Below, piece after piece: positions 3,912 through 19,780 of a stretch of 20,038 bases of DNA (the first letter of the stretch is position 1; each line of letters starts with the position of its first letter). The translations under genes and the position numbers were made by a program. This stretch comes from a virus. The DNA lies in the IMG/VR virus record IMGVR_UViG_3300033150_003028, positions 1 through 20,038 of that record; one strand, written 5' to 3'. The notes beneath the pieces were generated by a model. It did no database searches. It saw only the letters and a list, made by a program, of their open reading frames with translations, and was not told where the DNA came from.

Positions 3912-6900
3912 TTAGCTGCTGGACAGAATATGGATACTTTCAAGCTCGTCTATCAGAGCCGCCAGTTGCGCCCTGCATTCTGCATCCACCGTAGTTCCGC
4001 CGGAGGGGTCGTCCACCTTGTTTCCCTGGCCGGATAATACGGTGGTGGCGCCGATTTGATAAACCCCATCCGTTTGTATATTCCCATTGCATCCGATTGC
4101 AGCCCCATTCTGCAGTGCTATTCCAGCCGGATAAATACTAACCCGATCCTGGCCATCCGATGTCCGGATTCTTAACCGCCCGGCGCTATCAAATATATCC
4201 AGCGCACCAACCAGCTTGGAGCCATTATGCAACTTGAACATTGCATTAAACATTTGAGCATATTCAGAGCCACTATAGGAGTAGATTCCATTCGAGGTGA
4301 GCCTTCCCTCGATCTCAAGCAAACCAGCACTCTTATCCCATTTCACGTGCTGGCCACTTGAACTGCCGATTATCACATCACCAACCTCCGTGCCGCCCAC
4401 GATGCACTTGAATACATCGTTCGCGCCGTCGGTTACCAGAATGCCCGTGTTCGCATCCGGAAAAATCCTCACCCTGGGGCCGGAGCTTGCGCTGTTGTAC
4501 TGGCCGCCCAGGGCCGCCACCTTGTCCGTGGGATCATATCCGGAGGCGAATTCGCAGGAGCCTGAGATCCGGATCTTAGCGGCGTTGATTCGAAGCCCCT
4601 CGGTGGAAGCGTTAATCGTGCCGACAACATTGTCCGTGCCCACAACAGTGAAATTGCAGTGGCCCGTAGTCACTGCATTGACTTTGATCGAGCCGGAACC
4701 CACTTTCCCGGCTCTTTCCGGGGCTGTTTCATCGCTGATCTGGCTGGCGTTGCCGCTGTGATCGTAAGCTGTGACCCTGTATTGATATGATTTGTCGATA
4801 CTGGATTCGCCTACCTCGTGCACGAAAACCGTGGCCCTGTATTCCGGGTCGAGCACCCGCCAGGAGCCGCCGTTTTCTTTGCACTCGATCTTGAAATGCG
4901 AGAAATCCGGGCATGAGCCTCCGCCCTGGGCGGGCTCGCTGATATTGAGCAGCAGCCCGAGCTGAAGCGAGGTGACCGTGACTGCGGGCTTGTCCGGCCC
5001 GGTGGTGTCATCCGTGAGCTGCACGGTCTGGGAATCGCTGAAAGCCCCCGGGCGGTTGTTTCTGCCTACTGCCCTGGCCTTGAACTGGTAATAATGACCC
5101 GGCTTGAGCTTGCGGTCAGTGTTGTCATAAAAGATCGCCAGAGGGGCAGGATCCCCGGACTGATTTTGTTCCACCAGGCAATCCGGCAATTGCTGCCAGT
5201 CAGTCCAGCTTGTCTGGTTGCTTCCATCGTCGTCGCGGCGCCAGACCTCATAGCGCACGGCCAGGTCCTGCTCCCCGGAACAGGGTACGATTTTGAGCCG
5301 GATCGAGAAGGCCTGGTAGGGCCCCAAGGCCTTCCGTATGATCTGCGGGAAGCCGCCTTCTGAGGCCAGAGTGGGTGCATTGAGCAGTTGATCCGCATCC
5401 AGCATCGGCTCGTAGCACATGGTTCGCTCGATGCCGCGCTCACCCTCCCGGCCCCACCGGTCTACAGTGCTCAGGGCAAACGCCATCCAGCGCTCGCTGT
5501 CATTCTTGTATGGATTGGGCGGAACGCAGGCAAAGGCGTCCCGGCGCTCGGCATTGGCCGGGATCGTGCCGGCCAGCTGCCAGCCGGCGTTCATGCTCGG
5601 CCGCACGTAAACATTGTAGTGGTGGGCGCCTGCCACCTCGTTCTTGATAAATATCTGCACTGCGCCAGGGATGTTGAGCAGCGCATAATCATCCACTCCG
5701 GGGGGATCAAGCGGGCTGTCCGTGAGCAGAACGTCCTCCTCCGCTGCAATCGAGGAGGCCCGGCCGTTCGAATCCACGAACCGCACGCCGAAATCGTAAG
5801 CCACAAGCTCGGCAAAATCGCTGTCGGGCTGGGAATAGTCCGCTGAGCCGTCCGCGGCCACGGTCAGCTTTTTCGCCCCCCAGTCGTCCAGGTGGGCCGG
5901 GCGCTGGAAGAGCTCGTATTTCTGCCCTGCCGCGCCGGTGTCGTCCGCGCTCGCCTCCCAGAACCAGGTGACCGAGCCGTCCCCGCCTGCGGTGACAGCC
6001 ACGTTCCGCGGCGGATCGACAGCAGGCGCGCTCTCCTCGCTCTCCGCCCCATCGAGCAGCACCAGAGCGCTCCAGTGGATTTGTGCCAGGTTGCGATCGA
6101 TATTCTTCCGGGTGACCATCACCAGCAACGGATTCGCCTCGCTCACTCCGGGACGGCTGTAAAGCGTGGAATCCAGGTTGATATGATCGCCGATCTGCAG
6201 ATATGCGAACTTGAGCCTGGTTGACCATTCGATCATCCGCACGCCTTGTTTCTGCAGATTGAGCCGCCTGCGGGCCACCGCGGCAGCCACCCCTGGAGAG
6301 TCAATCGGGATGAATTCGCTGTGAAGTTTGTCCGGGGCGTGCTCCTTGTTCGCCTTTTCGCTGGCCTGGTCGTAGTCGATCTGGATTCCCCTGTACTGCT
6401 TGTCGTCGCTCCCCCTGCCGCCGAAAAGCACAGCCACCACATTGCGAAGGTGCTTGCGGCCGGGATAGAAAGCCTCGCTGCCCACAATCAGGTCGTTCCC
6501 GCCCAGGCTTTCGGTGTCCGGATCGGGAGTTGCCGCCAGCTCTGCATAGGCGAAACGCCATTTCCCCTTTTCGTCCACCACCTGGAAACCCAACAGGTGC
6601 CGGTTGAGCTCGGTGTCCACCGCCTGAAGGGATCCGGGCTTTTCGATCACGTGGGACAGCTCCCAATCGAATGCAGACTCCAGGGCCTCGAAATTCGCAT
6701 TGTTGATCTTTGACGGCCTGATCCGCGCCCGCTGCAGAAGGTCCCGCTTGATCCGGGCCGGGTTCATCCTCTCGTAATGGATTTCCTCGGTCATTTCCGG
6801 CGGGTCGTCCGGAGTGGGGGCCTCGGCCTGCCTGAACCTGATCTGCTGGTCGTAGCCGTGCACGACCACCCTGCCGTGTTCGATCTCCCAGTCCTCGATC

Positions 6901-8318
6901 CAGATCGTCTTGAAATGGAGAAAATCGCTCTCTGCAAGCCCAGCGCCTGCAAACCCGAGCTTGACTTGGATTTCGTCGTTTTTCATGGCATAGCGCGAGA
7001 ACAGGGCTGAGATCATCCCGCCGGGATCGAGCATCTCGATACGGCTCGTATCCGTGGCCTGGGCCTCCCCGGAGAGCGGGTCACCCTCAGCCGAATAGTC
7101 CGGGGCCTGGCTGACAACGTTCGGATAGCCGAAAAGAGGCTCGCTGGCCAGTGCGAACTTGTGGCTGCTGCGGAAAGCCACGCGCATGGAGTAGACTCTC
7201 GGGGTGGCAAGCTGATCGGAATCCGAACTCAGGGTGGGCCTGACCTGCACCCAGCGTTTGGTGAGTTTAGCGCCGTCGGACACAGCCTTCCAGCCCGAGG
7301 AGGCGAGCAGGCCCTGAGTGGCTGCCTCGCGCATGGCAAAACTCAGGCTCGTGCCCCGCGGCTCGACATAGCGAAGCTCGAGCTCGCCGGACAGATCGCT
7401 CGAGGGGGTTTCGCCCAGGTCGAATTCCCAGATGCCCGAGCCTGTCTTCTGGTAGCCGAAAGCGGTGATCTTGAACGACAGGCTTGCCTCCACCTCTGCG
7501 AAAAGCCCGGCCTCCGCATTGAAACGGTATAGATTGCCGGCTTCATAGTCGTTGCGCGAGTCGCCCCCGAGCAGCTCGGCATAGCTCACGTTCTCGGAGT
7601 TGACCAGCTTGATCGCAATCGCGCAGGGGCTGTTCCCGCCGGGCAGCCAGATATTCTCCTGGCTGAAATCGAGAATCCGCCACTTGCGGCCATCGGAGTC
7701 GGTTTCCAGGTCCACTCCCTGCACGGGCCCGCCCTGGCTCTCGTCAAGAGTATCCCTGGCCAGGTCGATCGTTCTCTCGGCAAGCACGTCCGCACCCTCG
7801 AGGATTCTGGCGATCTCGCTGGGCACGTCCAGCCGCTCCCTTCGGTAGCCCCCCATCCCGAGAGGCAGCACGTTGCGGAAATCGCGGAAATTGCTCAGAA
7901 TCTGCACCGTGAAACTTACCCTGGCCTTGTTCTCCCGGTTGTTAATGCCCAGGTAGAGCCTGCTCAGGCGGAAAGCGGTGCTGAACTTGACAATCTGAAC
8001 GAAAGTGACCGTGTAGTTGTAATAGCGCTCGGTCCAGGTACCGCCCATCAGGGTGCGTTTCGGCTCGGAGTGCAGCAGAATGGCCCGGTAGTTCTGTTTC
8101 AGTTGCTGTGCGGGATGGGTGATCTCGGCCCGGGCCAGGCGCAGCTCATCCGTGGGATGCTCCAGGTCGAGACCGGTCACCTGGCTGCCGGCTGCCCAGT
8201 CCCCCCGGAAATTCTTCTCTGCATATAACACAGTAGGCTTGAAATCGAAAAGAAGAACCGGCTGCGCGCTCCCCGCGGCAGCGGCCTCCCGCCATTTTTT
8301 CGTAGGCTCCAGCGCCAT
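3912..8318 (-). CDS. Tail hub/host-specificity protein, J-like, with fibronectin repeats and fibre-like C terminus
   Basis: This encodes 1468 residues. The ATG at 8318 overlaps the upstream stop as TGATG and has GGAGGTGATC in front. Residues 1-420 are beta-rich with two or three sandwich-like segments. Residues about 425-760 look like the baseplate hub of siphophage J/Tal proteins (IWIEDWEIEHGRVVVHGYD, then a block with LRNVVAVLFGGRG and RMIEWSTRL ... IGDHINLD). About 765-865, 870-970, 980-1105 and 1108-1205 are four fibronectin type III-like repeats, the last ending YQYRVTAYDHSGN. From 1207 the chain becomes fibre-like (EGLRINAAKIRISGSCEFASGYD, as in lambda J C termini) and ends in a short helix (QLAALIDELESIHIL) that could trimerise it. 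It would sit at the tail tip and decide receptor choice. Confident on role class, less on domain borders. Confidence 0.85.
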   Translation of the reverse strand: MALEPTKKWREAAAAGSAQPVLLFDFKPTVLYAEKNFRGDWAAGSQVTGLDLEHPTDELRLARAEITHPAQQLKQNYRAILLHSEPKRTLMGGTWTERYYNYTVTFVQIVKFSTAFRLSRLYLGINNRENKARVSFTVQILSNFRDFRNVLPLGMGGYRRERLDVPSEIARILEGADVLAERTIDLARDTLDESQGGPVQGVDLETDSDGRKWRILDFSQENIWLPGGNSPCAIAIKLVNSENVSYAELLGGDSRNDYEAGNLYRFNAEAGLFAEVEASLSFKITAFGYQKTGSGIWEFDLGETPSSDLSGELELRYVEPRGTSLSFAMREAATQGLLASSGWKAVSDGAKLTKRWVQVRPTLSSDSDQLATPRVYSMRVAFRSSHKFALASEPLFGYPNVVSQAPDYSAEGDPLSGEAQATDTSRIEMLDPGGMISALFSRYAMKNDEIQVKLGFAGAGLAESDFLHFKTIWIEDWEIEHGRVVVHGYDQQIRFRQAEAPTPDDPPEMTEEIHYERMNPARIKRDLLQRARIRPSKINNANFEALESAFDWELSHVIEKPGSLQAVDTELNRHLLGFQVVDEKGKWRFAYAELAATPDPDTESLGGNDLIVGSEAFYPGRKHLRNVVAVLFGGRGSDDKQYRGIQIDYDQASEKANKEHAPDKLHSEFIPIDSPGVAAAVARRRLNLQKQGVRMIEWSTRLKFAYLQIGDHINLDSTLYSRPGVSEANPLLVMVTRKNIDRNLAQIHWSALVLLDGAESEESAPAVDPPRNVAVTAGGDGSVTWFWEASADDTGAAGQKYELFQRPAHLDDWGAKKLTVAADGSADYSQPDSDFAELVAYDFGVRFVDSNGRASSIAAEEDVLLTDSPLDPPGVDDYALLNIPGAVQIFIKNEVAGAHHYNVYVRPSMNAGWQLAGTIPANAERRDAFACVPPNPYKNDSERWMAFALSTVDRWGREGERGIERTMCYEPMLDADQLLNAPTLASEGGFPQIIRKALGPYQAFSIRLKIVPCSGEQDLAVRYEVWRRDDDGSNQTSWTDWQQLPDCLVEQNQSGDPAPLAIFYDNTDRKLKPGHYYQFKARAVGRNNRPGAFSDSQTVQLTDDTTGPDKPAVTVTSLQLGLLLNISEPAQGGGSCPDFSHFKIECKENGGSWRVLDPEYRATVFVHEVGESSIDKSYQYRVTAYDHSGNASQISDETAPERAGKVGSGSIKVNAVTTGHCNFTVVGTDNVVGTINASTEGLRINAAKIRISGSCEFASGYDPTDKVAALGGQYNSASSGPRVRIFPDANTGILVTDGANDVFKCIVGGTEVGDVIIGSSSGQHVKWDKSAGLLEIEGRLTSNGIYSYSGSEYAQMFNAMFKLHNGSKLVGALDIFDSAGRLRIRTSDGQDRVSIYPAGIALQNGAAIGCNGNIQTDGVYQIGATTVLSGQGNKVDDPSGGTTVDAECRAQLAALIDELESIHILSSS

Positions 8319-9097
8319 CAGATCACCTCCCTGGCCTCGATCATGCCGTAGCGCACAGTGCGCGCGATGGCGAACCGCCTGGGCGCTCCCTCGCAGTTGA
8401 GATAGAGCGGATCCTCAGGCTCGCTCTGCGGGAAAGTGAGCCACCACCAGTTCCGGCCCTCTCCCGGGGCCTGGTTCCACCAGAGCTCGAGCAGCTCGTA
8501 ATGCGAGTCCGTGAGATTCTCGAAAGCGGCTCTCAGCACGCGCCTCCTGAAACGCTGGTTCCACTGGAAAGCGCCTGAGGCCCCGTGCACCGGCTCGCCC
8601 ACCACCTCCTCCTCGTACGGGTCGAAATCGCCGTAGGGGCCGAAAGTGAGCTCGATCCGCTTGCCTGCCCAGAGGTTGTAAATCCGGGGCTGGGCTGTAA
8701 GTCCGGTGATCCGCAGGCGCCAGAACTGCCGGCTAACCGCGCTGAAAGTGCGCCAGTAGATCGAGCCGCTCTCCAGGGCGCTGACCGTCACTGCGGTGGT
8801 CCAGCTCGCGCCGTCGGCCGAATGCTGGAAATAGACTGTGGCCGAGGCTCCCTCGAGCGTGAAATTCCGGTCCAGGACAAAGGTATCCATCTCCACTGCG
8901 CTGTCGAAATTCCAGGTGAGGCGCTGCTCGGATTTTCCCGCAGCTCCTTTCCAGAGCGAGCCCCGCGAGCGGTCGGTCAGGTGGGCCAGCGGGTAGATCC
9001 CGTTTTCAGCCAGCGGATTGCCCGAGCCGTCCGTAAAAGAGACAGAGCCGGCTTGCTCGAGCCTGTTCTGTGCCAGGATATGTGGAAATTCGGGCAT
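8318..9097 (-). CDS. Distal tail protein with discoidin-like carbohydrate-binding fold
   Basis: This encodes 259 residues from an ATG at 9097 with an AAGGAGAAAA site. Residues about 15-150 have the pattern of an F5/8 type C (galactose-binding-like) domain: LTDRSRGSLWKG, then LTWNFDSAVEMDTFVLDRN, a 'YFQHSADGASWT' strand pair and FWRLRITG. Residues 150-259 form a second beta domain (LTFGPYGDFDPYEEE ... NWWWLTFP). It sits directly before the hub gene and is stop-start coupled to it. In siphophages this position holds the distal tail (Dit) or tail-tip connector, and such proteins often carry sugar-binding domains. Virion adsorption aid is the best guess. No catalytic motif is seen. Confidence 0.7.
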   Translation of the reverse strand: MPEFPHILAQNRLEQAGSVSFTDGSGNPLAENGIYPLAHLTDRSRGSLWKGAAGKSEQRLTWNFDSAVEMDTFVLDRNFTLEGASATVYFQHSADGASWTTAVTVSALESGSIYWRTFSAVSRQFWRLRITGLTAQPRIYNLWAGKRIELTFGPYGDFDPYEEEVVGEPVHGASGAFQWNQRFRRRVLRAAFENLTDSHYELLELWWNQAPGEGRNWWWLTFPQSEPEDPLYLNCEGAPRRFAIARTVRYGMIEAREVI

Positions 9098-9261: not shown

Positions 9262-10170
9262 TCAATACTCCCTTGCCGGGTTGGAACCCGTGCGCACAAG
9301 CTCCCTGATTCTGTTCCGCAGCTCGCGGTCCACTCCGGCGCGGTCCAGGTTGCGGTCCACCTGGTACACGCTGCCGCCGCGGATACCGTCGATATAGACA
9401 TTGACCACCTGCGGCCCGCCCCGGGTGCTGCTGCTGCTCTCTGCTGAAACTCCGCCATCGCCCGCTGTTGCAAGCCTCACCCCTGAGCCTACGGTGCCTG
9501 AGCGGGCCGAGCCTCCCAGGCCTGAGGAAAGGCTGCGCAACATCTGGCCCAGGGCGATCAGGCCGAACGAGGCGGCCGCAGCGCCGAACGGGTTCAGGGT
9601 GCGGAAAGCGGCAAACGCCTTTGAGGCATACCCTGAGACTGCGCCGAGATGCATGGTGTAATCCGCCAGGCCGCGGTAGAGGTCTTTACATAGAATCGTG
9701 GAGCTGTTGCCGATCCTGTCGAACGAGCCTGTGGCCTGTTCGAGAATCTTGCGGAACATAGAGGCAAAGCTCGCCATTATCTTGTCGTTGCCGCTCATTA
9801 TCCGCTCGAGCATTTGATCGTACGTCTCTCTGATCGACCTAAAAAACTCCAGGCTGCCGTCCTTGTCTGTCATCGGTGCGAAAGAAGCCCTCCAGGGAGA
9901 CAGAATGCCCCTGCTTTTTTCACCGAATAAGCCGGGGAATCCCCCGCCTTTGCTTCTCGAAAGAAGAGGGCAGGTGAAAGGGCAGGCGGGTATTTTACCG
10001 AATCCCCCACCGGGCAGGCCGAAACCGCCGGGGATGCCGCTGCGTCCGCCTCCGCCTAAGACGCCTCCCAAGCCACCCTTGCCGAGAATTCCACCGAAAA
10101 GGCCGTCCAGTAATTTGTCTTTGCCTCCCAAAAACAGGCCCAGAGTAGAAAAAACATTATTTCCGCCCAT
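9262..10170 (-). CDS. Short tape-measure-like tail protein
   Basis: This encodes 302 residues from an ATG at 10170 with GAGAGGG eight bases upstream; a TAA closes the frame just before it. Residues 11-82 are Gly/Pro-rich (LGGVLGGGGRSGIPGGFG), 106-150 are helical (FFRSIRETYDQMLERIMSG) and 180-215 are a hydrophobic Ala/Phe-rich stretch. The C terminus (QVVNVYIDGI ... RIRELVRTGSNPAREY) looks like the end of many tape-measure proteins. Position supports this: after the frameshifting chaperone and before the distal tail and hub. Tape measures usually exceed 600 residues, so this is very short and predicts either a stubby tail or a different role. The DNA at its 5' end is AT-richer than neighbours, and another open frame overlaps its start. 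Confidence 0.6.
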   Translation of the reverse strand: MGGNNVFSTLGLFLGGKDKLLDGLFGGILGKGGLGGVLGGGGRSGIPGGFGLPGGGFGKIPACPFTCPLLSRSKGGGFPGLFGEKSRGILSPWRASFAPMTDKDGSLEFFRSIRETYDQMLERIMSGNDKIMASFASMFRKILEQATGSFDRIGNSSTILCKDLYRGLADYTMHLGAVSGYASKAFAAFRTLNPFGAAAASFGLIALGQMLRSLSSGLGGSARSGTVGSGVRLATAGDGGVSAESSSSTRGGPQVVNVYIDGIRGGSVYQVDRNLDRAGVDRELRNRIRELVRTGSNPAREY

Positions 10171-10342: not shown

Positions 10343-10540
10343 TCAGGTATTTTCGCAGTCTATTTTCACCGGCCCGATTTTCTTATAAAGCTCATCCGGG
10401 CCCCGTATTCTCACCTGCAGTTTGGGCTGGACGGGCTTAACTTCTTTTTCGGGAAAGGTTAACCGCAGCCTGCCTGATTGTGACAACAGAGCTTCTGTAG
10501 GAACCGCACCAAATCCTTTAAAAATATCCTTATTTTTCAC
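10343..10540 (-). CDS. Small protein of unknown function, coupled to the frameshift product
   Basis: This encodes 65 residues from a GTG at 10540 that overlaps, as GTGA, the TGA (10539-10537) ending the -1 extension of the tail chaperone. No clear ribosome site precedes it, so translation probably depends on ribosomes finishing the frameshifted product. The sequence is polar and basic-mixed (RLRLTFPEKEVKPVQPKLQ), with no membrane segment or known motif. It lies between chaperone and tape measure. No family recognised. Confidence 0.6.
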   Translation of the reverse strand: MKNKDIFKGFGAVPTEALLSQSGRLRLTFPEKEVKPVQPKLQVRIRGPDELYKKIGPVKIDCENT

Positions 10541-11234
10541 GTAGAAATTAACTGCTTTTTCTCCTGCTCGGCCCTGTGCGCCTGGCGCGCCCCGGTAAAT
10601 ATCTGGTAAATCTCGAAATCGCGCCAGCTCAAGCTCTCGGGATCAGGCCGGAATGTGTCGATATAGTCTGCCAGCAGGGCGGCATAGTAAGTGGTGAGAA
10701 AACGGGGCCGCCAGCGCAGAGACTCCCCGACCCTGCAGCCCCGGCACGGATCAGGCCCCTCGGCCTGCCAGCCGCAGCAGTCCGCACCCGAGCAGATCGG
10801 GCTGTCGCCCGGGACATCCGCGCGCTCGAAGCCTGCCCGGATGTCCCGGATCAGTTTTTTGCAGTCTCCTCAGCAAGAGTACCCTCCTGCCTGAGCAGCT
10901 CCTCCACAGCCCAGTACTTGTGCTCGATTGGAATCGCTTCCCTCAAGGCGTCCCCGCTGTCTCCAGGCTCGGGCAACTCATACCCCTGGACCCGGAGAAT
11001 ACACCTGTCGTAGAGGGTCTCGATCGCGCCCCAGTAGCCGCTCCCGCTGTCAGCGCCGCCTGCACCGGCCAGCTCGGCACGGCTCATGCAGCCGTAGAAA
11101 ACCTTCTTGTCAGCAGCGCTCGGTTCGCGGAAAACATGAACCAGTTTATAAATTTCGCCATGGGCGCGCACCTTGAGGGTGATCTCGACCTCTCCCCCGG
11201 AGCGTGAAAGGGGAAAAAGCTTGTTATTGCTCAT
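10537..11234 (-). CDS. Tail assembly chaperone, long -1 frameshift product (G-T type fusion)
   Basis: This is inferred to be made by a -1 shift at A AAA AAC (10860-10854). The ribosome reads ...E-T-A-K-N, then continues CTG ATC CGG for 105 more codons to the TGA at 10539-10537, giving about 232 residues. The -1 frame is closed upstream by a TGA at 10872-10870 and has no usable start codon, so frameshifting is the only evident way to express it. The extension holds five cysteines (fusion residues 148, 153, 154, 164 and 167; pattern C-x4-C-C-x9-C-x2-C) followed by a helical tail (DFEIYQIFTGARQAHRAEQE). In lambda, the G and G-T proteins coat the tape measure and recruit tube subunits during tail assembly, and gene order here matches that role. 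Confidence 0.75.
10809..10860 (-). promoter_or_regulatory. Programmed -1 ribosomal frameshift signal
   Basis: In the mRNA sense the zero frame reads GCA AAA AAC TGA, so the heptamer A AAA AAC (10860-10854) fits the X XXY YYZ rule exactly. After a 4-base spacer comes a perfect 12-bp stem: CCGGGACATCCG (10849-10838) with CGGATGTCCCGG (10820-10809), and a 17-base loop. Zero and -1 frames are both open only between 10869 and 10851, and the heptamer lies in that small window. Confidence 0.85.
10851..11234 (-). CDS. Tail assembly chaperone, short zero-frame product (G-like)
   Basis: This encodes 127 residues from an ATG at 11234, with AAGGAG eleven bases upstream. A longer frame to 11270 adds 12 unconvincing residues. 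It is a compact alpha/beta protein (EVEITLKVRAHGEIYKLVH, then DKKVFYGCMSRAEL) ending in a helical Glu-rich tail (EHKYWAVEELLRQEG). It sits between the tail tube and tape-measure genes, the fixed place of siphophage tail chaperones, and ends in the slippery codons AAA AAC TGA. The family assignment rests on position, size and frameshift signal rather than on a motif. Confidence 0.75.
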   Translation of the reverse strand: MSNNKLFPLSRSGGEVEITLKVRAHGEIYKLVHVFREPSAADKKVFYGCMSRAELAGAGGADSGSGYWGAIETLYDRCILRVQGYELPEPGDSGDALREAIPIEHKYWAVEELLRQEGTLAEETAKN

Positions 11235-11282: not shown

Positions 11283-12326
11283 TTAGCCCGTCGGGAAATA
11301 TCCGCTCACTGACCCCTCGACGGTCTTGACCGAAAGCGGCCCTCCCGTGGCCTCGTGCCAGGCGCCCTGGATGTCGAGTTCCAGATGAAGCAATCCGTCG
11401 TCGTAGCCGTAATCCAGCCTGGTGCAGACTGCCTGGGGCACAGTGATCTCGATCTCGTCGAAATCATCCGGGGATGTGCCGGATATTTTTTCGCCCAGGC
11501 AGGAAATGATCATCTCGCTTGCAGTGCCCTCCTGCTGGGCAATGCGGAAATCGGCCAGGTCGCCGCTTTCGGCAAGCATGGTCAGCCCGAGAGCCAGGTT
11601 GCGCTCCGGGGTGTAGGGCCACACGCAAGGATAGATCCTCTCCGCCTCGGCAGCCGCCTTGCGCCAGGCCAGCCCGGTGTTGATACCGGATTCGAGAGTG
11701 AGTTCGAAAGAGCGAAGCTGCGCTCTTTTGCCTGAATCACCGCCGATACTGAAAGTGCCTGCATAGTTGTAGAGATAGCGCAGCGGGCTCGCCTCGGGCC
11801 AGCTATAGCCGCTGAGCGTTCCCCCGATCCTGGAGGCCAGAAATGACCCTCCGGCTTCACATCTGTTCGATCCCTCCCCGCGCAGAGTGAGGCTCGCACA
11901 GGCGATATCCTGAAGGTAGTAGTCGTTGCCGTCCTCCTGCACGGCGAAAGTGGTTACATAGGCCTCCGGCCGCGTGCCGAGAGACTGGAACCGGGAGGTA
12001 TGCTCGTATGCCCCGCTGCCCAACTGCTGACTGCTGTCGTAGGAAAAGAGCAGGGCCAGCAGATAGCCAATAAAATCCACGGGGAGCGGCTGCACGGGAA
12101 TCTCGAACCGCACGTACTGCCGGATTCGGCCTCGCTGGGTTTCCCAGTCGTGACCCGTGCCGATCATTCCACGGTCCGTCCAGTGCTCGGCAGACTCGTC
12201 GATAACAATGGGCTCCTGAAGTTTGAGAAACCTGGTCAGGTCTGCATTGGACAGCGGGGACCCGAAAGAATCCTGCTTTTCAACCGACCAGGCGATCTTG
12301 CTCGCAGTTCGCTGCACTGGTGCCAT
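11283..12326 (-). CDS. Major tail tube-like protein
   Basis: This encodes 347 residues from an ATG at 12326 with GAGGTGAATT upstream. The sequence is almost wholly beta-patterned. An early segment (RIRQYVRFEIPVQPLPVDFIGYLLALLF) is followed by strand pairs such as AYVTTFAVQEDGNDYYLQD and LRSFELTLESGI, the usual look of siphophage tail-tube subunits. It ends in LHLELDIQGAWHE ... VSGYFPTG. It precedes the frameshifting tail chaperone, as tube genes normally do. At 347 residues it is longer than many tube proteins, which may mean an added surface domain. The call rests on context and beta pattern, not on a signature motif. Confidence 0.65.
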   Translation of the reverse strand: MAPVQRTASKIAWSVEKQDSFGSPLSNADLTRFLKLQEPIVIDESAEHWTDRGMIGTGHDWETQRGRIRQYVRFEIPVQPLPVDFIGYLLALLFSYDSSQQLGSGAYEHTSRFQSLGTRPEAYVTTFAVQEDGNDYYLQDIACASLTLRGEGSNRCEAGGSFLASRIGGTLSGYSWPEASPLRYLYNYAGTFSIGGDSGKRAQLRSFELTLESGINTGLAWRKAAAEAERIYPCVWPYTPERNLALGLTMLAESGDLADFRIAQQEGTASEMIISCLGEKISGTSPDDFDEIEITVPQAVCTRLDYGYDDGLLHLELDIQGAWHEATGGPLSVKTVEGSVSGYFPTG

Positions 12327-12456: not shown

Positions 12457-12903
12457 TTAAACCTGCTGGCGGACCTGCCAGGTTGCCACAGTCATCCTGT
12501 AAACTGCAAGCCCTTCCTTCTCGGCTTCCTCATCCTTTTCGCAGGATTCTACTGTGATCGGAGCCAGGCCGGACAGAGCCAGATCGTTGCCCATCAGCGC
12601 ATCGCGGATGCTGTCGATCAGGCCGTAGGTATTCTCAACGCTGAAACGCCTACCGCGAAAATCCTCGGCGACCAGGGTCAGCCTGAAAGTAAGGTGCTCC
12701 TCGGCAAGGCTGCTGTCCGAATTGAGTTCTGAATAATGCGACCGGGTGAGCGCCACTCCGACAAAGGGGAGGTTGCGTCCAAGCTCGACAAACTCCTTGA
12801 GCGACCCGGCGAAAGTAGCCACGGTTTCCGCATTCAGGCTATCGACTGCCGAGGCCAGCCTGTTGATTATCGCATCGGAAACGGTCTTGATTGATGAAGC
12901 CAA
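12457..12903 (-). CDS. DUF1834 (Mu gp37-like) head-tail/tail-terminator-type protein
   Basis: This encodes 148 residues from a TTG at 12903 with an excellent GGGGAGG site five bases upstream. The layout fits the DUF1834 family: an N-terminal helix (IKTVSDAIINRLASAV), a central FVELGRNLPFVGVALTRSHY, a helix after 'RRFSVENTYGLIDSIRDAL', and a last strand ending RMTVATWQVRQQV. In Mu-like phages this gene follows the DUF1320 connector and precedes the tail genes, as here. It probably joins or ends the tail at the neck. The upstream 210-base gap and the TTG start suggest that its translation may be separately tuned. Confidence 0.75.
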   Translation of the reverse strand: MASSIKTVSDAIINRLASAVDSLNAETVATFAGSLKEFVELGRNLPFVGVALTRSHYSELNSDSSLAEEHLTFRLTLVAEDFRGRRFSVENTYGLIDSIRDALMGNDLALSGLAPITVESCEKDEEAEKEGLAVYRMTVATWQVRQQV

Positions 12904-13113: not shown

Positions 13114-13566
13114 TCAGAGCTTTTTCAGCCTGTCTTCAGTATAGACCCGGTCCTGTTCTTCCGCATCCGTGCGGTAGGAGCGCTCGGTGTGGCTCGCAAC
13201 GCTTCCGGAATCATCGAGCCCCAGGCTGTGCTCGCCCTTCGAGGCAGCTTTGAACTCGGCCTTGCAGTCCTCGTACACGCTGCGCCAGGTGTCGGTTACC
13301 GCCCTGCGCCGCAAATAGAGGTTATAGACAGCGAGAGTTGCGCTGATCCGGTTTATCTCGTCCGGAACCGGGTCGTATCCCCGCAGCCCGGGCCAGCGCC
13401 CGAGAAGGTAGCTGTCGATCTGTGCGTCTGCGCTCTCGATAGCCTCTTCGGCCACAGAGGTCACGCTCTCGCTCCCGATCGTTGCATCCGGATCGGTGGT
13501 GCAGAGCCGCACCAGTTCCTGGGCGTCTATCCAGCGGGTCAGGTCTGTAATCGCAGAGTAAGCCAT
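13114..13566 (-). CDS. DUF1320 (Mu gp36-like) head-tail connector
   Basis: This encodes 150 residues from an ATG at 13566 (GAGGTAAAG upstream); a longer TTG frame to 13587 was rejected. The sequence follows the DUF1320 pattern: 'MAYSAITDLTRWIDAQELVR' at the N terminus, an AEEAIESADAQIDSYLLGRW helix, then VPDEINRISATLAVYNLYL and a basic helix around VYEDCKAEFKAA. The C-terminal tail is charged (DAEEQDRVYTEDRLKKL). This family forms the adaptor ring below the portal in Mu-like phages. Gene order, after the capsid gene and before DUF1834, agrees. Confidence 0.85.
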   Translation of the reverse strand: MAYSAITDLTRWIDAQELVRLCTTDPDATIGSESVTSVAEEAIESADAQIDSYLLGRWPGLRGYDPVPDEINRISATLAVYNLYLRRRAVTDTWRSVYEDCKAEFKAASKGEHSLGLDDSGSVASHTERSYRTDAEEQDRVYTEDRLKKL

Positions 13567-13639
13567 CTTTACCTCGGGCGTTGACAAGAGTACTAAAAGT
13601 TAGATGCATTTCAGCATAGCCGTGCATTGAATCCCCGAC

Positions 13640-13838: not shown

Positions 13839-14795
13839 TCAGCTCGAGTAAGCCCCGGTGATCAGAAACCCGCAGTCAGGGCTGACTACTTCCTCTGTCT
13901 GCTCGATCAGGCCTTCCACTACAGTGGCGTGCTTACCCTCGTCACGGTAACGATAGGCAGCCACGTCCAGAGAGCCGGAAATCGGGCGGCGGAACTGGTA
14001 TGCCAGCGAGATAGAGCGCTTGCTCGGTGCCGTGCGCTCGACATAGCAAACCAGCACGCTGTTGTCATCCCAGAGGAAATCGAAATCAGCACTGCCCACT
14101 CCGGGCGCCGCCTCATCGCACAGCGAAAGAGGAATCACCACCTCCAGGCCGAACAGCCTGGGCGGCAGCTCGCCGTTGACCAGCAGGGTCGAGTCAGTGT
14201 GTTTGACCAGATCGCGGATTTTTTCATCCTTCTTGGCTTCCACTGCAATATGGGGCGGAATCACTATCGTGTTAGGCTCCACTCCGGCTTTCTTGCGCAC
14301 GCTAAGCTTGGCTCCGTCGATATCGCCCTCGATATCGACACCGCTGGCTGCATTCCAAGCCGCGGTCGCCGCTGCGTTATTGGTGATCACGCTGGTGGAC
14401 ATGACCATGGAGACCACTCTCAGCTCGATCGGCAGACGCAGTTTCCTGATGATCAGGGCGATAGCGTCACGTTCCGGGTCCACCACTGCGCGGTCGGCGT
14501 TGTCCATCTCCTCATCGGCGATCAGCTCCCTGAGGCCGTACTGCTTGCAGGCGTAGTTGGCCGAACTGTATGAGCGGCGGATCTCGTTGGATTCGGTCAG
14601 CGGCGCGCGCAAGGCGTCGTAGTCGTTGCGCAGGGCCTCGATGTTGCTGAACTTGTAGTACTTGCCTGTGGTGGTCGGCACATGGACCACCGGGGCAAGC
14701 CTGTCCGCCACAAACGGTCCGCCCAGGCCCATGTTTTCCACAGCGAACTGGGTCAGGGTCCGGTTGAGATTCTGAGTCGAATATCTGTCTGCCAT
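13839..14795 (-). CDS. Major capsid protein (HK97-fold type)
   Basis: This encodes 318 residues from an ATG at 14795 with GGGAGATAAAG upstream. It shows the layout of a common Mu-like/siphophage capsid family: an N-terminal arm (NRTLTQFAVENMGLGGPF), 'APVVHVPTTTGKYYKF' at the E-loop entry, 'YGLRELIADEEMDNAD', a long spine helix (ALIIRKLRLPIELRVVSMVM), a PNTIVIPPHIAVEA strand-helix, then LFGLEVVIPLS and 'LAYQFRR'. There is no cleaved delta domain, consistent with a separate scaffold. It follows the protease/scaffold and decoration genes. A 6-bp hairpin lies in its leader. Confidence 0.88.
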   Translation of the reverse strand: MADRYSTQNLNRTLTQFAVENMGLGGPFVADRLAPVVHVPTTTGKYYKFSNIEALRNDYDALRAPLTESNEIRRSYSSANYACKQYGLRELIADEEMDNADRAVVDPERDAIALIIRKLRLPIELRVVSMVMSTSVITNNAAATAAWNAASGVDIEGDIDGAKLSVRKKAGVEPNTIVIPPHIAVEAKKDEKIRDLVKHTDSTLLVNGELPPRLFGLEVVIPLSLCDEAAPGVGSADFDFLWDDNSVLVCYVERTAPSKRSISLAYQFRRPISGSLDVAAYRYRDEGKHATVVEGLIEQTEEVVSPDCGFLITGAYSS

Positions 14796-14871: not shown

Positions 14872-15276
14872 TCAAGGTGCCGGATTATCCACGCGTACCG
14901 GCCAGACCACGACCGGGATCAGCTGATCCTCTGCGGCTGAATCGCGCAGCGCATAGCCGACAAAATACTGCACTGTTCCCTGGCTGGCGGCTGCGGCTGT
15001 AGTAACCTTGCCGTCGGCGTCACTGACCAGCCAGTCTCCCTCGCTGATATTCCCGTCAGCAGCAAGAGCCAGCACTGTGCTTCCCCCCTGGGCGACCCGT
15101 ACATCCTTGCCTGCATAACCGGTCTCAGTGGTAATACCCGCGAACTTGGCCGCGTTGGCCCCGGAGGCGTTTACCACTCCGCTATTCAGTACCACGCAGG
15201 CACCTCGGGGGATATCACTGCTACCGACAGTGAAAGTGTCGGTATTGTTAAGTCTTTCTCTGAGTTTAATCGTCAT
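14872..15276 (-). CDS. DUF2190-type head decoration protein
   Basis: This encodes 134 residues from an ATG at 15276 preceded by CGGAGTGAAGGGAA. The small beta-barrel pattern is typical of DUF2190 capsid decoration proteins: 'IPRGACVVLNSGVV', 'KFAGITTETGYAGKDVRVAQ', then a VLALAADGNISEGDWLVSDA block and 'QYFVGYALRDSAAEDQLIPV'. Such proteins bind the capsid surface at 3-fold sites and stabilise it. It lies between the scaffold/protease and capsid genes, the usual place. Confidence 0.85.
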   Translation of the reverse strand: MTIKLRERLNNTDTFTVGSSDIPRGACVVLNSGVVNASGANAAKFAGITTETGYAGKDVRVAQGGSTVLALAADGNISEGDWLVSDADGKVTTAAAASQGTVQYFVGYALRDSAAEDQLIPVVVWPVRVDNPAP

Positions 15277-15340: not shown

Positions 15341-15922
15341 TCAGGCCTGAGCGGCCTTTTCCCGGCGCACCCGTTTGATCGCCTCCTCGAAAGTGAGCCC
15401 CGGGTTGGCGGAGATCAGCTCTAGTGCGGCATCGTGTTCCGGGTCCTCGGGAAAACCGCTGAACTCGGCTCTCCTGCGGGCGATCTCGTCCACAGCCTGC
15501 GGATTGTCCCCGGGTGAAGAAAGCTCCTGGAAAAGAGCCAGCCGCTGCCGCTGGGACACCTCTTCGAGTATGGCGTTGCGCCCGGTCTGATCCAGGCGGG
15601 AGCCGAGCCGGTAGTAGCCTTTGAGCTCCGCAGGCGTCAGCCGCCCGTCTTTCGCGGCTTGCTCCAGGGCCGAGGCGAAGCTGGCAAGCCCGGCCTCCTG
15701 GTTTCTCATCTGGAGAGCTTTCTCCAGCTCTGCCAGGCGTGCTTCAGCGTCCAAACGCGCTTCTTTCTCCCGCTCGAGCTCCTCTTTCAACTCGGCCAGT
15801 TCTGCAGCAGCATTGTCGTTCTCCGTTGCGGAACTTTTCTGCTGATTCTCATCTCTCGCAGTCTGGATAAAAATCTCTTTCAGCGCATGGATCGCCCGTT
15901 CGGCAATCGTTCTGTCATCCAT
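15341..15922 (-). CDS. Nested scaffold protein from an internal in-frame start
   Basis: Met173 of the protease/scaffold gene (ATG at 15922) follows AGGAGAGGTGAGG, one of the strongest ribosome sites in the window. The product would be 193 residues: MDDRTIAERAIHALKEIF, the coiled coil and the C-terminal helices, without the protease. Nested scaffolds made this way are known from lambda (Nu3 within C) and Mu (Z within I). The arrangement is seen here; expression is inferred. Confidence 0.6.
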   Translation of the reverse strand: MDDRTIAERAIHALKEIFIQTARDENQQKSSATENDNAAAELAELKEELEREKEARLDAEARLAELEKALQMRNQEAGLASFASALEQAAKDGRLTPAELKGYYRLGSRLDQTGRNAILEEVSQRQRLALFQELSSPGDNPQAVDEIARRRAEFSGFPEDPEHDAALELISANPGLTFEEAIKRVRREKAAQA

Positions 15923-16438
15923 CCTCACCTCTCCTGTTCTTGGAAGCGCTTCGGTTAGATTCATCTCTCCGGAGCCGATCAGGATTGCTCGCTGCCCGGC
16001 CCGTTCCGTCATCACTGAAGGCTCCGGCGAAAGTCCCTTGACTGCCGGCGGGGCAGCCCCGAGAAAGCTGACCGCACCCAGGTAAGCCCTGCCGGTTGTT
16101 TCGAACGGCTTGTACATCTCGATCGAGCGGCTGCGGTAGGCTCCGCTGCGCAGCCACTGGCGCAGGCTTTCGGACAGGTCTGCAAACCGAGCCTGCAGCC
16201 TGTCGCCGAGCACACGAAGTGCGGCCACCCAGCCGTGCGCAGGGCCCTCCCGGCGATGCTCCACCGTGACCGGGGCTTCCTGGACCTGTGGATCATAGTC
16301 GGCGGCCATAGTGTACAGGTCCTCAGGGGTGATCTCGATCCGCGTGGGCGCCCCGGCGATCGTTCCCTTCCACAGGCCGGCTCTGGCGACATCCCACCAT
16401 CCGTCAATCTGCTCGTCTGTCAGTCTGCTGTTTTTCAT
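15341..16438 (-). CDS. Head maturation protease with scaffold domain (Mu I-like)
   Basis: This encodes 365 residues from an ATG at 16438, seven bases after the portal stop. Residues 20-137 form the protease part: RIEITPEDLYTMAADYDP, 'VTVEHRREGPAHGWVAALR', and RSRSIEMYKPFETTGRAYLG ... FLGAAPPAVKG, as in Mu I-type and related capsid assembly proteases. His61 and Ser105 are the best catalytic candidates by eye. Residues 206-247 are a strong coiled coil (ELAELKEELEREKEARLD...), typical of scaffolds. The tail is charged and helical. It would scaffold procapsid assembly, then cleave itself and the scaffold. A nested start at 15922 could give the scaffold alone. Confidence 0.82.
   Translation of the reverse strand: MKNSRLTDEQIDGWWDVARAGLWKGTIAGAPTRIEITPEDLYTMAADYDPQVQEAPVTVEHRREGPAHGWVAALRVLGDRLQARFADLSESLRQWLRSGAYRSRSIEMYKPFETTGRAYLGAVSFLGAAPPAVKGLSPEPSVMTERAGQRAILIGSGEMNLTEALPRTGEVRMDDRTIAERAIHALKEIFIQTARDENQQKSSATENDNAAAELAELKEELEREKEARLDAEARLAELEKALQMRNQEAGLASFASALEQAAKDGRLTPAELKGYYRLGSRLDQTGRNAILEEVSQRQRLALFQELSSPGDNPQAVDEIARRRAEFSGFPEDPEHDAALELISANPGLTFEEAIKRVRREKAAQA
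15926..15935 (-). promoter_or_regulatory. Internal ribosome binding site for the nested scaffold
   Basis: AGGAGAGGTG lies 3 bases before the in-frame ATG at 15922. The codons Thr-Gly-Glu-Val-Arg it encodes are otherwise unremarkable linker residues at the protease-scaffold boundary, which is where a separate scaffold should begin. Confidence 0.6.
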
Positions 16439-16444
16439 AAGCCT

Positions 16445-17749
16445 TTAATCCTCTTTGCCCGGTTCTGTACTATAATTTTCATATTCGTTCTTTTCGGGCC
16501 CTCCTGCACCCAAGCCGGTCTTTCCTTCCAGCGGCTCGTCATCCACATGGGGAGCCGGGAAGCCGATCTGCTCACGCAGCCATGACTGGCCGACATCCAG
16601 GCCCAAATCGTTCACAGCCACAGAGACTGCCTGAAGGTACGATTCAAGGTCCTTGTCTTCCTCGTAAGCGATACGGAAACGCGGATACCGGCCGGGCGGC
16701 AGCGGACCGAAATTAATCTCGATCAGAGTGCGGATCACCCCGTCAATCTGCTCCTGCTGCCAGAGGGAGTCGTCCTCGATAATGTTCTGCAGGCCCTTGT
16801 TCTGGAACTTGGCCAGGGCGTAAGTACCGCTTTCGCTTTCAGTAGAGAGGGTCTGGCCGAGAATCGCCTTGGCATACTGTCGGTCGACGTACTCGGAGAT
16901 GATGAAACGGAAAAGATCGGTTACTCCCTGCCGTGCGATTTCATTGACCTGAAATTCGGTACCCTCCGGACCGATGCCGACCGCGTTGCTATGCATAAGT
17001 TTAAGTACTTCCAGCAGTGCATCCTGCTCGACAGCCGACAAGCCCCTTGGGTAATTGGCCCAGAGATAGGGCGCGCCGAACTTCTCCACGAAACGGACCA
17101 GCTCCTTGATCGCATTGTTCTTGAAAAACCACAGCGGGTAAAGCTCGCGCAGAAGACCCTGTCCGAACGGGCTTTCATCCGAGCCCCAGGTATTGACCAC
17201 GAACTTCTCGCGCGGCATCACTTTCTCATCTCCGGGTCCGTTGCCCAGCAGAACCAGTCTGCCGTGTTCATCGAAACGGAAACGCTCAGGGTCCCGGGTC
17301 CGGAAGCAGGCGATTCCCACCGTGCCGTCGAAGCGGCGGGTGAACATTATCTCGGCCGGTGCATAACCATGGCTGACACCGCGGAAAAACCGCGTGCGGC
17401 TCAGATGAAAATTTTCCACACCCTCAATCACCTCTTTCACCCAGGCAGTTCGTTCGTGATCCTCACGTGTTTCACCGCCCGGAATGATCCGCCAGCCCTG
17501 GGCCATCACGTTTAGAGCGCGCTGCCTGAAACACATCGCAAGCTGGGCGTCCTTGCGCAGCATCTCGCTGTAGAGCCGCAAGCCCTCGTCGGAGTGATCG
17601 ACCAGGGTGCGGTCGGGATTTTCCAGGTAACGCCCGAAAAGGCGATTGAACTTTTCAGCGGCCGGGCTGGAGAGCTCGCGTCCAAGCCGGATGTTAAGCG
17701 TAGCCTTTCCGGGTCTTCTCCTTCTTCTTCTGTTGCCGTTTGTAGCCAT
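16445..17749 (-). CDS. Portal protein, Mu gp29-like (DUF935)
   Basis: This encodes 434 residues from an ATG at 17749 overlapping the terminase stop as TGATG. The N terminus is Arg-rich (NRRRRRRPGK). Family marks are 'MCFRQRALNVMAQGWRI' near 73-89, 'FFRGVSHGYAPAEIMF' near 121-136, a long helix region with PLWFFKNNAIKELVRFVEKF and GAPYLWANYP (206-234), and the diagnostic ILGQTLSTE at 296-304. The C-terminal 40 residues are acidic. The portal forms the dodecameric DNA channel at one capsid vertex and docks the terminase. Mu places an F-type minor head gene after the portal, but here the protease follows at once. Confidence 0.9.
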   Translation of the reverse strand: MATNGNRRRRRRPGKATLNIRLGRELSSPAAEKFNRLFGRYLENPDRTLVDHSDEGLRLYSEMLRKDAQLAMCFRQRALNVMAQGWRIIPGGETREDHERTAWVKEVIEGVENFHLSRTRFFRGVSHGYAPAEIMFTRRFDGTVGIACFRTRDPERFRFDEHGRLVLLGNGPGDEKVMPREKFVVNTWGSDESPFGQGLLRELYPLWFFKNNAIKELVRFVEKFGAPYLWANYPRGLSAVEQDALLEVLKLMHSNAVGIGPEGTEFQVNEIARQGVTDLFRFIISEYVDRQYAKAILGQTLSTESESGTYALAKFQNKGLQNIIEDDSLWQQEQIDGVIRTLIEINFGPLPPGRYPRFRIAYEEDKDLESYLQAVSVAVNDLGLDVGQSWLREQIGFPAPHVDDEPLEGKTGLGAGGPEKNEYENYSTEPGKED

Positions 17750-19395
17750 CACCCGAATACCTTTTTTAGATGTTCCTTGCCCGTTCGGGGCCGGTCAAAG
17801 CGGAACCGCTCCGGCCCGGCAACTTTTTCCATGAGCTGTACCGCCATTTCCAGGGCGTCCGGGCCGTCATCATGACCGGCCAGAGGAAAGAAGCGCAGCT
17901 CGTCCAGAAGCGTTTTGTGTTTTTTCTGAAAGCGAAGCCTGCCGCTTTTGACCAGCGGCTGAAGGCGCTGGATGCGCAGCTTCTTGTCTTTTGTCTGCTT
18001 GAGGCCTCTCACCGGCGGATAAATCCCCCGTCTGGCAGCCTCTTTTTCCAGAGTCTCCTTGAAAAATTCCTGGAACTGGACTGTTTCCACTCCGATTACA
18101 CAGGGCCGCCGCCTGGCATAAAGCTCCAGCGTATCCTCGATTATTGCATCCGGGCTCCTGCGCTGGATGTCAGCCTCCAGCACGTAGAGCGCACCGTTTT
18201 CGTCCCGGCCCAGGCATACTATGGCCGAGGGGTCGCCGTGACGGCCCTTGCCGCCCAGGGAGGGATCCACCGCAGCCACCAGAGTAAGGCGCTCAAGATT
18301 GATCTCCTCCTCCTCGAACCAGTTGAACCATTCCGCCTGGAAAAGTGCCTCCCGCGGGTTCACCGGCTCGTTCTGGATCTCGCTGTCGAAACTCGCCGGG
18401 CCCTCAGCCACACGCAGTTTCATCAGGTCGTAGTAGCTTCGGTGCGCCGGCCAGATCACCCGGGTACCTGCTGTCATCCGTTTACTGTGCCGGGCAAAAA
18501 AGGCGTCGGCTCTCGCGGTGCGTTCTTTCTCGGGTATGGACATATCCGTGTATAACCTTTCCCATTCCTCCCAGAGAGCAGTTTCCGCGCTCCATCTGAG
18601 CACTCCCTGGTACTTGCGGCTGGCGAAAGCCGGGTTGGCAAGCAGCCTTGAAAGCAGGCTTTCGTAATGCAGGATCGTTCCGATCACCACAATATCAGCT
18701 CTTTTGCTCGCCGTCTTGCTGAAAGCCTTGAAAAACCAGTCTGCAATCTTCTGCCGTTGCTCCACAGTCTGGCTGTTTCTGTCGTTTTCCAGATCATCGC
18801 CGATCAGCAGGTCCGGCCGGAACTGGCGGTGGCGCAGGCCGCGGATGTTACCTCCGGTGCCGCGCGCGGTGAGTTTCACTCCGCCGTTGGTAATGATCTC
18901 GCTCTTGGTCCAGAGCGGGCCGGCCCCTGTGAGCCCGCCGAAACTCTCCCGGAGTCTTTCGTTATCCTCCAGTTCGATCTTGATATCGCCGAGATGCCGC
19001 TCCGCCTGGGTGGCCGTGTCACTGGCGATCAGGATGTAGCGCTTGCCGGCGGTTTCCGGGTAACAGATACACCACAGCGGCAGGAAAAGAGTGGCGATAG
19101 TGCTTTTGGCGCTCTCCCGGGGGGCGGCAACTGCGATACGGTGGCCTCGCTCTCTGTCAAGAACAGCGTCGGTGAGCAGAGCATACATCTCGAGATGGAA
19201 ATCACTCGGTTGCTCCCTGTGGTAGTGGTCAAAATATTTTTCGGCGAATATTCCAATATCCAGCCTTCCCAGCTCCCGGTCACGCTGAGCAGGCGGCTTC
19301 AGCCTCCCGATATCCTTTAACAGCTTTTCGACGCTCTTCTGGACTGAGCGCCTCGATCTCCTGCCTGATCCTCTCGCATGACCTGCTCTGCTCAT
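17749..19395 (-). CDS. terL: Terminase large subunit (packaging ATPase-nuclease)
   Basis: This encodes 548 residues. The ATPase half has a Walker A-type APRESAKST at 91-99, a Walker B LLIGDD at 196-201 and a coupling-motif GT at 239-240 (VVIGTILHY). The RNase H-like nuclease half has Asp377 in VAAVDPSLGG, Glu437 in IGVETVQFQEF and the acidic HDDGPDALE at 508-516. It pumps DNA into the procapsid through the portal and cuts the concatemer. The ATG at 19395 is the only standard start, yet it overlaps the preceding gene by 116 bases, and the first 40 residues are Arg/Ser-rich and poorly conserved-looking. Gene order (small subunit, large subunit, portal) is standard. Confidence 0.95.
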   Translation of the reverse strand: MSRAGHARGSGRRSRRSVQKSVEKLLKDIGRLKPPAQRDRELGRLDIGIFAEKYFDHYHREQPSDFHLEMYALLTDAVLDRERGHRIAVAAPRESAKSTIATLFLPLWCICYPETAGKRYILIASDTATQAERHLGDIKIELEDNERLRESFGGLTGAGPLWTKSEIITNGGVKLTARGTGGNIRGLRHRQFRPDLLIGDDLENDRNSQTVEQRQKIADWFFKAFSKTASKRADIVVIGTILHYESLLSRLLANPAFASRKYQGVLRWSAETALWEEWERLYTDMSIPEKERTARADAFFARHSKRMTAGTRVIWPAHRSYYDLMKLRVAEGPASFDSEIQNEPVNPREALFQAEWFNWFEEEEINLERLTLVAAVDPSLGGKGRHGDPSAIVCLGRDENGALYVLEADIQRRSPDAIIEDTLELYARRRPCVIGVETVQFQEFFKETLEKEAARRGIYPPVRGLKQTKDKKLRIQRLQPLVKSGRLRFQKKHKTLLDELRFFPLAGHDDGPDALEMAVQLMEKVAGPERFRFDRPRTGKEHLKKVFG

Positions 19396-19714
19396 CTGTA
19401 TCGCTTCTTACTCCCACTTTTGCCGGACCTTTTCCGTAAGCGTAACCGTAAACCGTTTTCATCCTGAAAAGCAGGGCCTGCCGGTCACCCTCGCTCACCT
19501 TTACCTCAAGCCGTCTCTCGTCTTTTGCCAGTCCTAAAGCCTCGCTCTTTTCCACCAGCATGGCGAATTTTTCATCCCTGGCAAATTTCCGCTCCAGTTC
19601 AGCGAAAGTTATTCCTGCCCAGCCGCAGGCTCCCTTGCGGGTTCCCCCTCTGCGCAGATGCCTGAGCAGCCGGTGCAGTTCACTGAATGTGAAATCGGGT
19701 ATCTGCTGGCTCAT
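19280..19714 (-). CDS. Putative terminase small subunit
   Basis: This encodes 144 residues from an ATG at 19714 with AAAGGA seven bases upstream. A GTG at 19780, touching the previous stop as TGAGTG, would add 22 residues and cannot be excluded. The helical N-terminal part (FTFSELHRLLRHLRRGG, then GWAGITFAELERKFARDE) looks like a DNA-binding helix-turn-helix followed by an oligomerisation helix (FAMLVEKSEALGLAKDERRLE). The last 40 residues (ERIRQEIEALSPEERRKAV) are helical and would contact the large subunit, which starts inside this gene. The call rests on location and layout. Confidence 0.65.
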   Translation of the reverse strand: MSQQIPDFTFSELHRLLRHLRRGGTRKGACGWAGITFAELERKFARDEKFAMLVEKSEALGLAKDERRLEVKVSEGDRQALLFRMKTVYGYAYGKGPAKVGVRSDTDEQSRSCERIRQEIEALSPEERRKAVKGYREAEAACSA

Positions 19715-19780
19715 CAACTCATCCTTTTCATCTGCCTCACAGACAGAGAACACAATCTCCTCATCCTTTCTCGCGGACAC

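Follow-up and report, generated by a model that had tools for sequence, protein, structure and literature searches.

Does the short reading frame between the presumed tail tube and tape measure genes of this viral record end in a programmed −1 ribosomal frameshift, and what kind of element carries it? The window, that is, the whole stretch of DNA analysed here (20,038 nucleotides, positions 1 to 20,038 of the IMG/VR record IMGVR_UViG_3300033150_003028), encodes on its minus strand a zero-frame protein of 127 aa, which runs from ATG at 11234 to TGA at 10853-10851 (10851-11234 with the stop). It was assigned as a putative G-like tail assembly chaperone on the basis of its translation, its homologues in six genomes and the likeness of its structural model to 3fgx, 2ob9 and 3klu. 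Its gene ends GCA AAA AAC TGA, with the slippery heptamer A_AAA_AAC at 10860-10854 in correct phase. The −1 frame is closed by TGA at 10872-10870, is then open for 105 codons (10854-10540) and terminates at TGA 10539-10537, defining a candidate T-like extension of 105 aa (10537-10854), and the next ORF begins with GTG at 10540 in a GTGA overlap with this stop. These positions all agree with the original prediction, which had proposed that a programmed −1 frameshift extends a short tail chaperone into a frame lacking a usable start; indeed, the first ATG, GTG or TTG of the −1 frame in the window occurs only at codon 75. The GTGA overlap with the next ORF is not kept in relatives.

In-phase heptamers of the slippery type are found at only 7 of 5,850 positions in the window's genes, A_AAA_AAC among them. 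Two in-phase heptamers are of the all-A kind, namely A_AAA_AAC and an AAAAAAG near the end of terL, the latter being taken as chance. Off-frame open runs this long are not rare in the window (10 of 407 reach 105 codons); the run by itself is therefore unimpressive, and the argument rests on the relatives.

A spacer of four nucleotides (TGAT, 10853-10850) separates the heptamer from a putative stimulatory hairpin (10809-10849, minus strand), in which the arm at 10849-10838 (CCGGGACATCCG) is perfectly complementary to that at 10820-10809 (CGGATGTCCCGG), giving the 12-bp stem that had been predicted, with a 17-nt loop. The region folds with a z-score of −4.5, and none of 200 dinucleotide shuffles was as stable. 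A search of Rfam gave no match. A Shine-Dalgarno-like GAGGAG before the window's heptamer was not counted as a stimulator, since it is not kept in all relatives.

A search with the capsid protein led to related loci in Candidatus Glassbacteria and in assemblies labelled Gemmatimonadales, and a search of the phylum added further members. The junction lies within the available sequence of six relatives (G001, G002, G003, G005, G007 and G009). An IMG/VR relative, L002 (IMGVR_UViG_3300031553_000049), ends at the tail tube and hence has no junction, for which reason it was excluded from this comparison, and a distant capsid relative (L004) was left out. Scans of viral contigs with the extension, chaperone, portal and tip proteins retrieved no relatives, nor did an exact-pattern scan of viral contigs for the heptamer plus stem, and tblastn of the tail tube and the fusion against annotated phages found no match.

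In all six relatives, the extension directly follows the chaperone in the same −1 register, with identities to the window of 39-82% for the chaperone and 38-78% for the extension. The junction reads A AAA AAC TGA in five of them and A AAA AAA TGA in G003, and the hairpin is kept in all six; the conservation of heptamer and stem, which had been proposed as a check on the frameshift, thus held, with A_AAA_AAA as the variant in G003. In G005, the heptamer and hairpin are retained though the cysteine-containing part of the extension is lost. Both frames are indicated to be under purifying selection, dN/dS in two genome pairs being 0.20-0.26 for the chaperone and 0.31-0.35 for the extension. The conservation of the signal in six relatives settles that it did not arise by chance, and we have very little doubt that these sequences record a selected frameshift signal. 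As the original prediction had anticipated for ordinary gene calling, start-to-stop calling drops half of the conserved protein in these clusters.

The G002 chaperone contains an in-frame TAA (L006 10214-10216, G002:C20), while the other cluster genes of G002 are intact. An internal stop (TAG) interrupts gyrA in this assembly too, and the TAA is therefore plausibly an assembly error; decay is the other possibility.

Two other accounts of the junction have to be weighed against a frameshift. The stem arms encode conserved residues (RDIR and ADVP), and it could be argued that stem and heptamer are functionless by-products of these amino acids. When codons were redrawn for the same amino acids, however, 48 of 84 Watson-Crick stem pairs were expected versus 76 of 84 observed, and none of 5,000 trials reached the observed count. 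Over the window and its six relatives, 94% of stem cells are paired, versus 26-50% when the partner is slid by 1-3 columns. Three stem pairs are changed on both sides, two of them from A-U to G-C in G005, where the encoded residues are altered (RDIR to RGVR and ADVP to AGAP, i.e., D to G, I to V and V to A) but the pairs stay. The stem pair counts and compensatory changes, together with the codon shuffle, rule out a chance origin of the signal, and on this comparative evidence the hairpin is selected as RNA, with pairing beyond what the encoded amino acids require; we regard the by-product account as highly improbable. Marginally less improbable, and still very unlikely, is that the second frame is a separate protein made by termination-reinitiation. 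Its best case is G003, where the junction is ATGA, placing an ATG in the −1 frame with GAGGAA upstream, and re-initiation is possible in this genome. The −1 junction codon is CTG in the window and in the other five relatives, however, and the first ATG, GTG or TTG follows only at codon 75 (window and G001), at codon 44 (G009) or at codons 8-9, inside the hairpin (G002, G007 and G005); moreover, if the second frame were translated by re-initiation, there would be no need to keep both A_AAA_AAC and a stem. Relatives whose second frame has its own start codon, or which keep both frames after losing heptamer and stem, had been named in advance as evidence against the frameshift, and neither was cleanly found: G003 does have an ATG at the junction, but it retains A_AAA_AAA and an 11-bp stem. 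The programmed frameshift is thus supported by both frames, heptamer and stem being kept in six relatives, by compensatory changes, by the codon shuffle and, more tentatively, by a predicted chaperone-like fold.

As to this fold, neither the chaperone nor the extension matched a family in Pfam or PHROGs, including the tail chaperone families for which a search of the extension had been suggested, and their profiles found nothing useful by sequence in the PDB. VIA-align matched the chaperone model, whose pLDDT of 65 makes for modest confidence, with 3fgx from Bacillus stearothermophilus (Z 7.5), with 2ob9, titled HK97 tail assembly chaperone (5.5), and with 3klu, which is YqbN (5.3), where a Z under 8 can reflect a common arrangement; the best-aligned structures also include a Vibrio PICI-like protein with a Z within 7.5 to 5.3. 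We take 3fgx and 3klu to be prophage tail proteins of the tail-assembly-chaperone kind. Foldseek of the same model against the PDB gave no significant match, and a search of BFVD returned several named tail chaperones, none at E<0.001. The paired frames sit between the tail tube and tape measure genes in the window and its relatives, tube and tape measure being assigned mainly by position. The predicted fold and the place before a tape-measure-like gene support a G role for the chaperone.

The extension is modelled as helical with low confidence (pLDDT 58), too poor for a fold search. Its residues 21, 27, 37 and 40 form a C-x5-C-x9-C-x2-C pattern (window 10735-10794), which is present in most members and deleted in G005. 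This four-cysteine motif looks like a zinc site, and to our knowledge no such site is known from lambda T.

The frameshift lies in a cluster of about 20 kb, which comprises lysis, terminase, portal, protease, capsid and tail genes; the assignments that follow are all on the minus strand of the window. A probable small terminase (19280-19780) matches phrog_4044 weakly (E 0.018, and 0.00067 for the G007 homologue) and occurs once in all six class genomes. It is followed by the large terminase (17749-19395; phrog_38, E 1e-114), a Mu-type portal (16445-17752; PF06074, E 5e-72), a head maturation protease (15341-16438; phrog_976, E 2e-39), a cement/decoration protein (14872-15276; PF09956, E 2.5e-9) and the major capsid protein (13839-14795; phrog_1005, E 2e-47), which is 76-94% identical in relatives. 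Then come a Mu gp36-like head-tail protein (13114-13587; PF07030, E 9e-19) and a Mu gp37-like protein (12457-12903; phrog_490, E 2e-9; PF08873, E 8e-5, slightly short of the curated cut-off). The presumed tail tube protein (11283-12326) was assigned by position without a family match, with one copy in each of the six class genomes. Beyond the frameshift site lie a presumed tape measure protein (9262-10170), which was assigned by position, a weak match to phrog_1538 (E 0.42) and homologues in relatives, a distal tail-like protein (8318-9097; phrog_9522, E 2e-4; F5/8 type C-like, E 7e-5) and a large tail tip or host-contact protein of 1,468 aa (3912-8318; weak matches to phrog_5616 and phrog_31), which is kept in three relatives.

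Several features of this gene order are worth recording in their own right. The protease directly follows the portal (16438-16445) with no Mu F-like minor head gene between them, unlike in phage Mu. With only 302 aa, the presumed tape measure would imply a short tail, about 45 nm long if the usual 1.5 angstrom per residue applies; a short tape measure is also a feature of RcGTA. The last two genes of the cluster (613-2172 and 215-688) have signal-peptide-like N-termini, one of them with a NosD-like repeat domain, and in G002 and G009 they have counterparts on the downstream side of the cluster, which is unusual for phage structural genes. The diverged relative L002 has additional ORFs in two places, one separating its portal and protease genes and the other behind its capsid gene; these come with repeated segments that are glycine-rich in translation.

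A question raised by this gene content is whether the cluster belongs to a mobile phage or to its host. The class sample consisted of six Candidatus Glassbacteria genomes, of which the named ones are metagenome-assembled and fragmentary. A tail tube profile gave exactly one match per genome in all six, and a capsid profile matched the six at E<1e-195; among 389 other Gemmatimonadota genomes, the capsid profile gave three weak matches only (E 1e-18 to 2e-4) and no close homologue. Host flanks were recovered in five of the six genomes, G001 being the exception, and host genes are seen on one side of the cluster per genome. Upstream, G007, G005 and G003 have in common two cation/proton-antiporter-like genes, and behind these they carry, in one conserved order, genes for an M15 peptidase-like protein (E 0.12 only), a holin-like protein (named by eye) and, in most cases, a third small protein of membrane type, and then those of the terminase; in G007 and G005, the collinear host stretch extends further to a GlgC-like nucleotidyltransferase and a GalT-like gene. 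Downstream, G002 and G009 have in common an M14-like peptidase and a radical-SAM protein (named by eye). The flank-sharing genomes lie on both sides of the tree's main splits, which makes it most likely that the cluster was inserted before the sampled lineages diverged.

The trees are consistent with this. Eleven cluster proteins gave a tree with {G002,G007}, {G003,G005} and {G001,G009}, which is identical to the EF-G tree, and rpoB plus EF-G recovered {G002,G007} and {G003,G005} at 100% with a poorly resolved third split. The cluster topology was not rejected on the host data of rpoB plus EF-G (p-AU 0.32), although the best host tree was disfavoured by the cluster data (p-AU 0.011). Pairwise distances of cluster and host were correlated (Mantel r 0.935, with 5 of 720 permutations as high, in a small sample). 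dN/dS ranges from 0.05 to 0.45 across all cluster genes, and the structural genes, head genes included, are constrained and free of internal stops, the G002 chaperone being the exception. We are fairly confident that these patterns reflect a domesticated, vertically inherited cluster, and what the record lists as a "virus" probably represents a domesticated particle, for instance a gene transfer agent (GTA).

The published criteria for GTAs (PMC9662315) can be set beside these observations. The cluster encodes proteins derived from tailed phages; it appears fully endogenized, host genes adjoining it in five genomes; and mostly vertical inheritance with co-diversification is indicated by its presence in 6 of 6 genomes and by the agreement of the trees, one host split being weak. 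By the sequence-testable criteria the cluster is thus GTA-like, which is not to say a proven GTA; that it is a GTA proper seems to us more likely than not. A literature search for a GTA in Gemmatimonadota or Glassbacteria found no report, and very few GTAs are known outside Alphaproteobacteria (PMC12946183, 2026).

Two rival readings accept the frameshift and concern the element. The window was itself taken from a virus collection, and its Mu-like head genes and lysis-like genes would suit an ordinary prophage or a Mu-like phage lineage of Glassbacteria that favours one site. Mu-like phages insert at random, which speaks against such a lineage at a single site. So do the single copy in all six genomes, the flanks common across deep splits and the agreement with the host tree; besides, no tyrosine integrase or tRNA was found on the cluster contigs, and no replication or regulatory module lies between the lysis genes and the host genes. 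We consider this reading unlikely, and a little more so the other one, in which the cluster is domesticated but makes a tailocin-like or other particle that transfers no host DNA. The preserved tail genes and chaperone signal would fit it, but the large terminase, portal, protease, cement and capsid genes are all intact (dN/dS 0.05-0.24), whereas a headless tail weapon would lose them. The supposed phage looks like a vertically inherited, class-wide, GTA-like cluster, a point that the original prediction had not seen.

Overall, we put the probability of the whole explanation, a frameshifted chaperone in a domesticated, GTA-like Glassbacteria cluster, at about 0.78. Most ribosomes would end at TGA 10853-10851 and yield the 127-aa chaperone. 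A minority, held up by the hairpin while AAA is in the P site and AAC in the A site, would shift back by one base on A_AAA_AAC and read 105 more codons, giving a fusion of 232 aa. In lambda G/GT, the short product attaches to the tape measure protein, and the longer one additionally brings in tail tube subunits (PMC5009743). By analogy, the short form here would coat the tape measure protein while the added 105 residues would recruit tail tube subunits, and the ratio of short form to fusion, set by the slippery site, would control tail assembly. A_AAA_AAC is poor in E. coli, being weaker than A_AAA_AAG (PMC5009743), and the pairing of such a weak site with a strong hairpin could plausibly serve to set the ratio in this cluster. 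On this reading, the ancestor of Glassbacteria would already have carried the cluster in endogenized form and passed it on vertically, most probably as a GTA that packages host DNA. The sequences themselves show the signal and its conservation, selection on both frames, the single copy across the class, the flanks common to genomes and the agreement of the trees; slippage in the cell, the chaperone function, particle production and DNA transfer are what we infer.

If this is true, a single-copy, class-wide cluster at a shared locus represents a new GTA lineage in a largely uncultured group, and the reading of such IMG/VR "viruses" changes. A lineage could hardly maintain a recoding signal, compensatory changes included, unless tail making were under selection; such a signal can therefore separate functional domesticated particles from decaying prophages. 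On balance, we favour the view that Glassbacteria carry an independently evolved GTA, class-wide since their ancestor, with a Mu-like head and with tail assembly through an ancient hairpin-stimulated −1 frameshift, in which the recoding signal would show that particle assembly is selected in a domesticated element.

The predicted frameshift is of the lambda G/GT type, with a well-supported hairpin, and is missed by family searches. As in lambda gpG/gpGT (reviewed in PMC5009743), the site lies between the tail tube and tape measure genes, the −1 slip occurs near the end of the first frame, and a short and an extended product would result. Unlike in lambda, the site here combines A_AAA_AAC with a strong adjacent 12-bp hairpin, the extension carries the four-cysteine motif in most members, and no sequence similarity was found; frameshifting in certain tailed phages seems to proceed without stimulators (PMC5009743). 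A_AAA_AAC is also the slippery heptamer of the g-t frameshift in HCTV-2, at the corresponding place among the tail genes (PMC5009743), but HCTV-2 is a haloarchaeal virus, and the searches used found no similarity to it. With RcGTA, BaGTA and BhGTA (PMC9662315) the cluster has in common an endogenized head-tail cluster, vertical inheritance and genes derived from tailed phages; it differs from them in belonging to another phylum, in its Mu-type portal and head genes, and in being known from genes alone. FpGTA of Faecalibacterium (PMC12946183), a recent example, is likewise a GTA-like element outside Alphaproteobacteria; however, it is described as podovirus-like and backed by packaged-DNA reads, whereas the Glassbacteria cluster, known from sequence alone, has the arrangement of tail tube, chaperone and tape measure genes.
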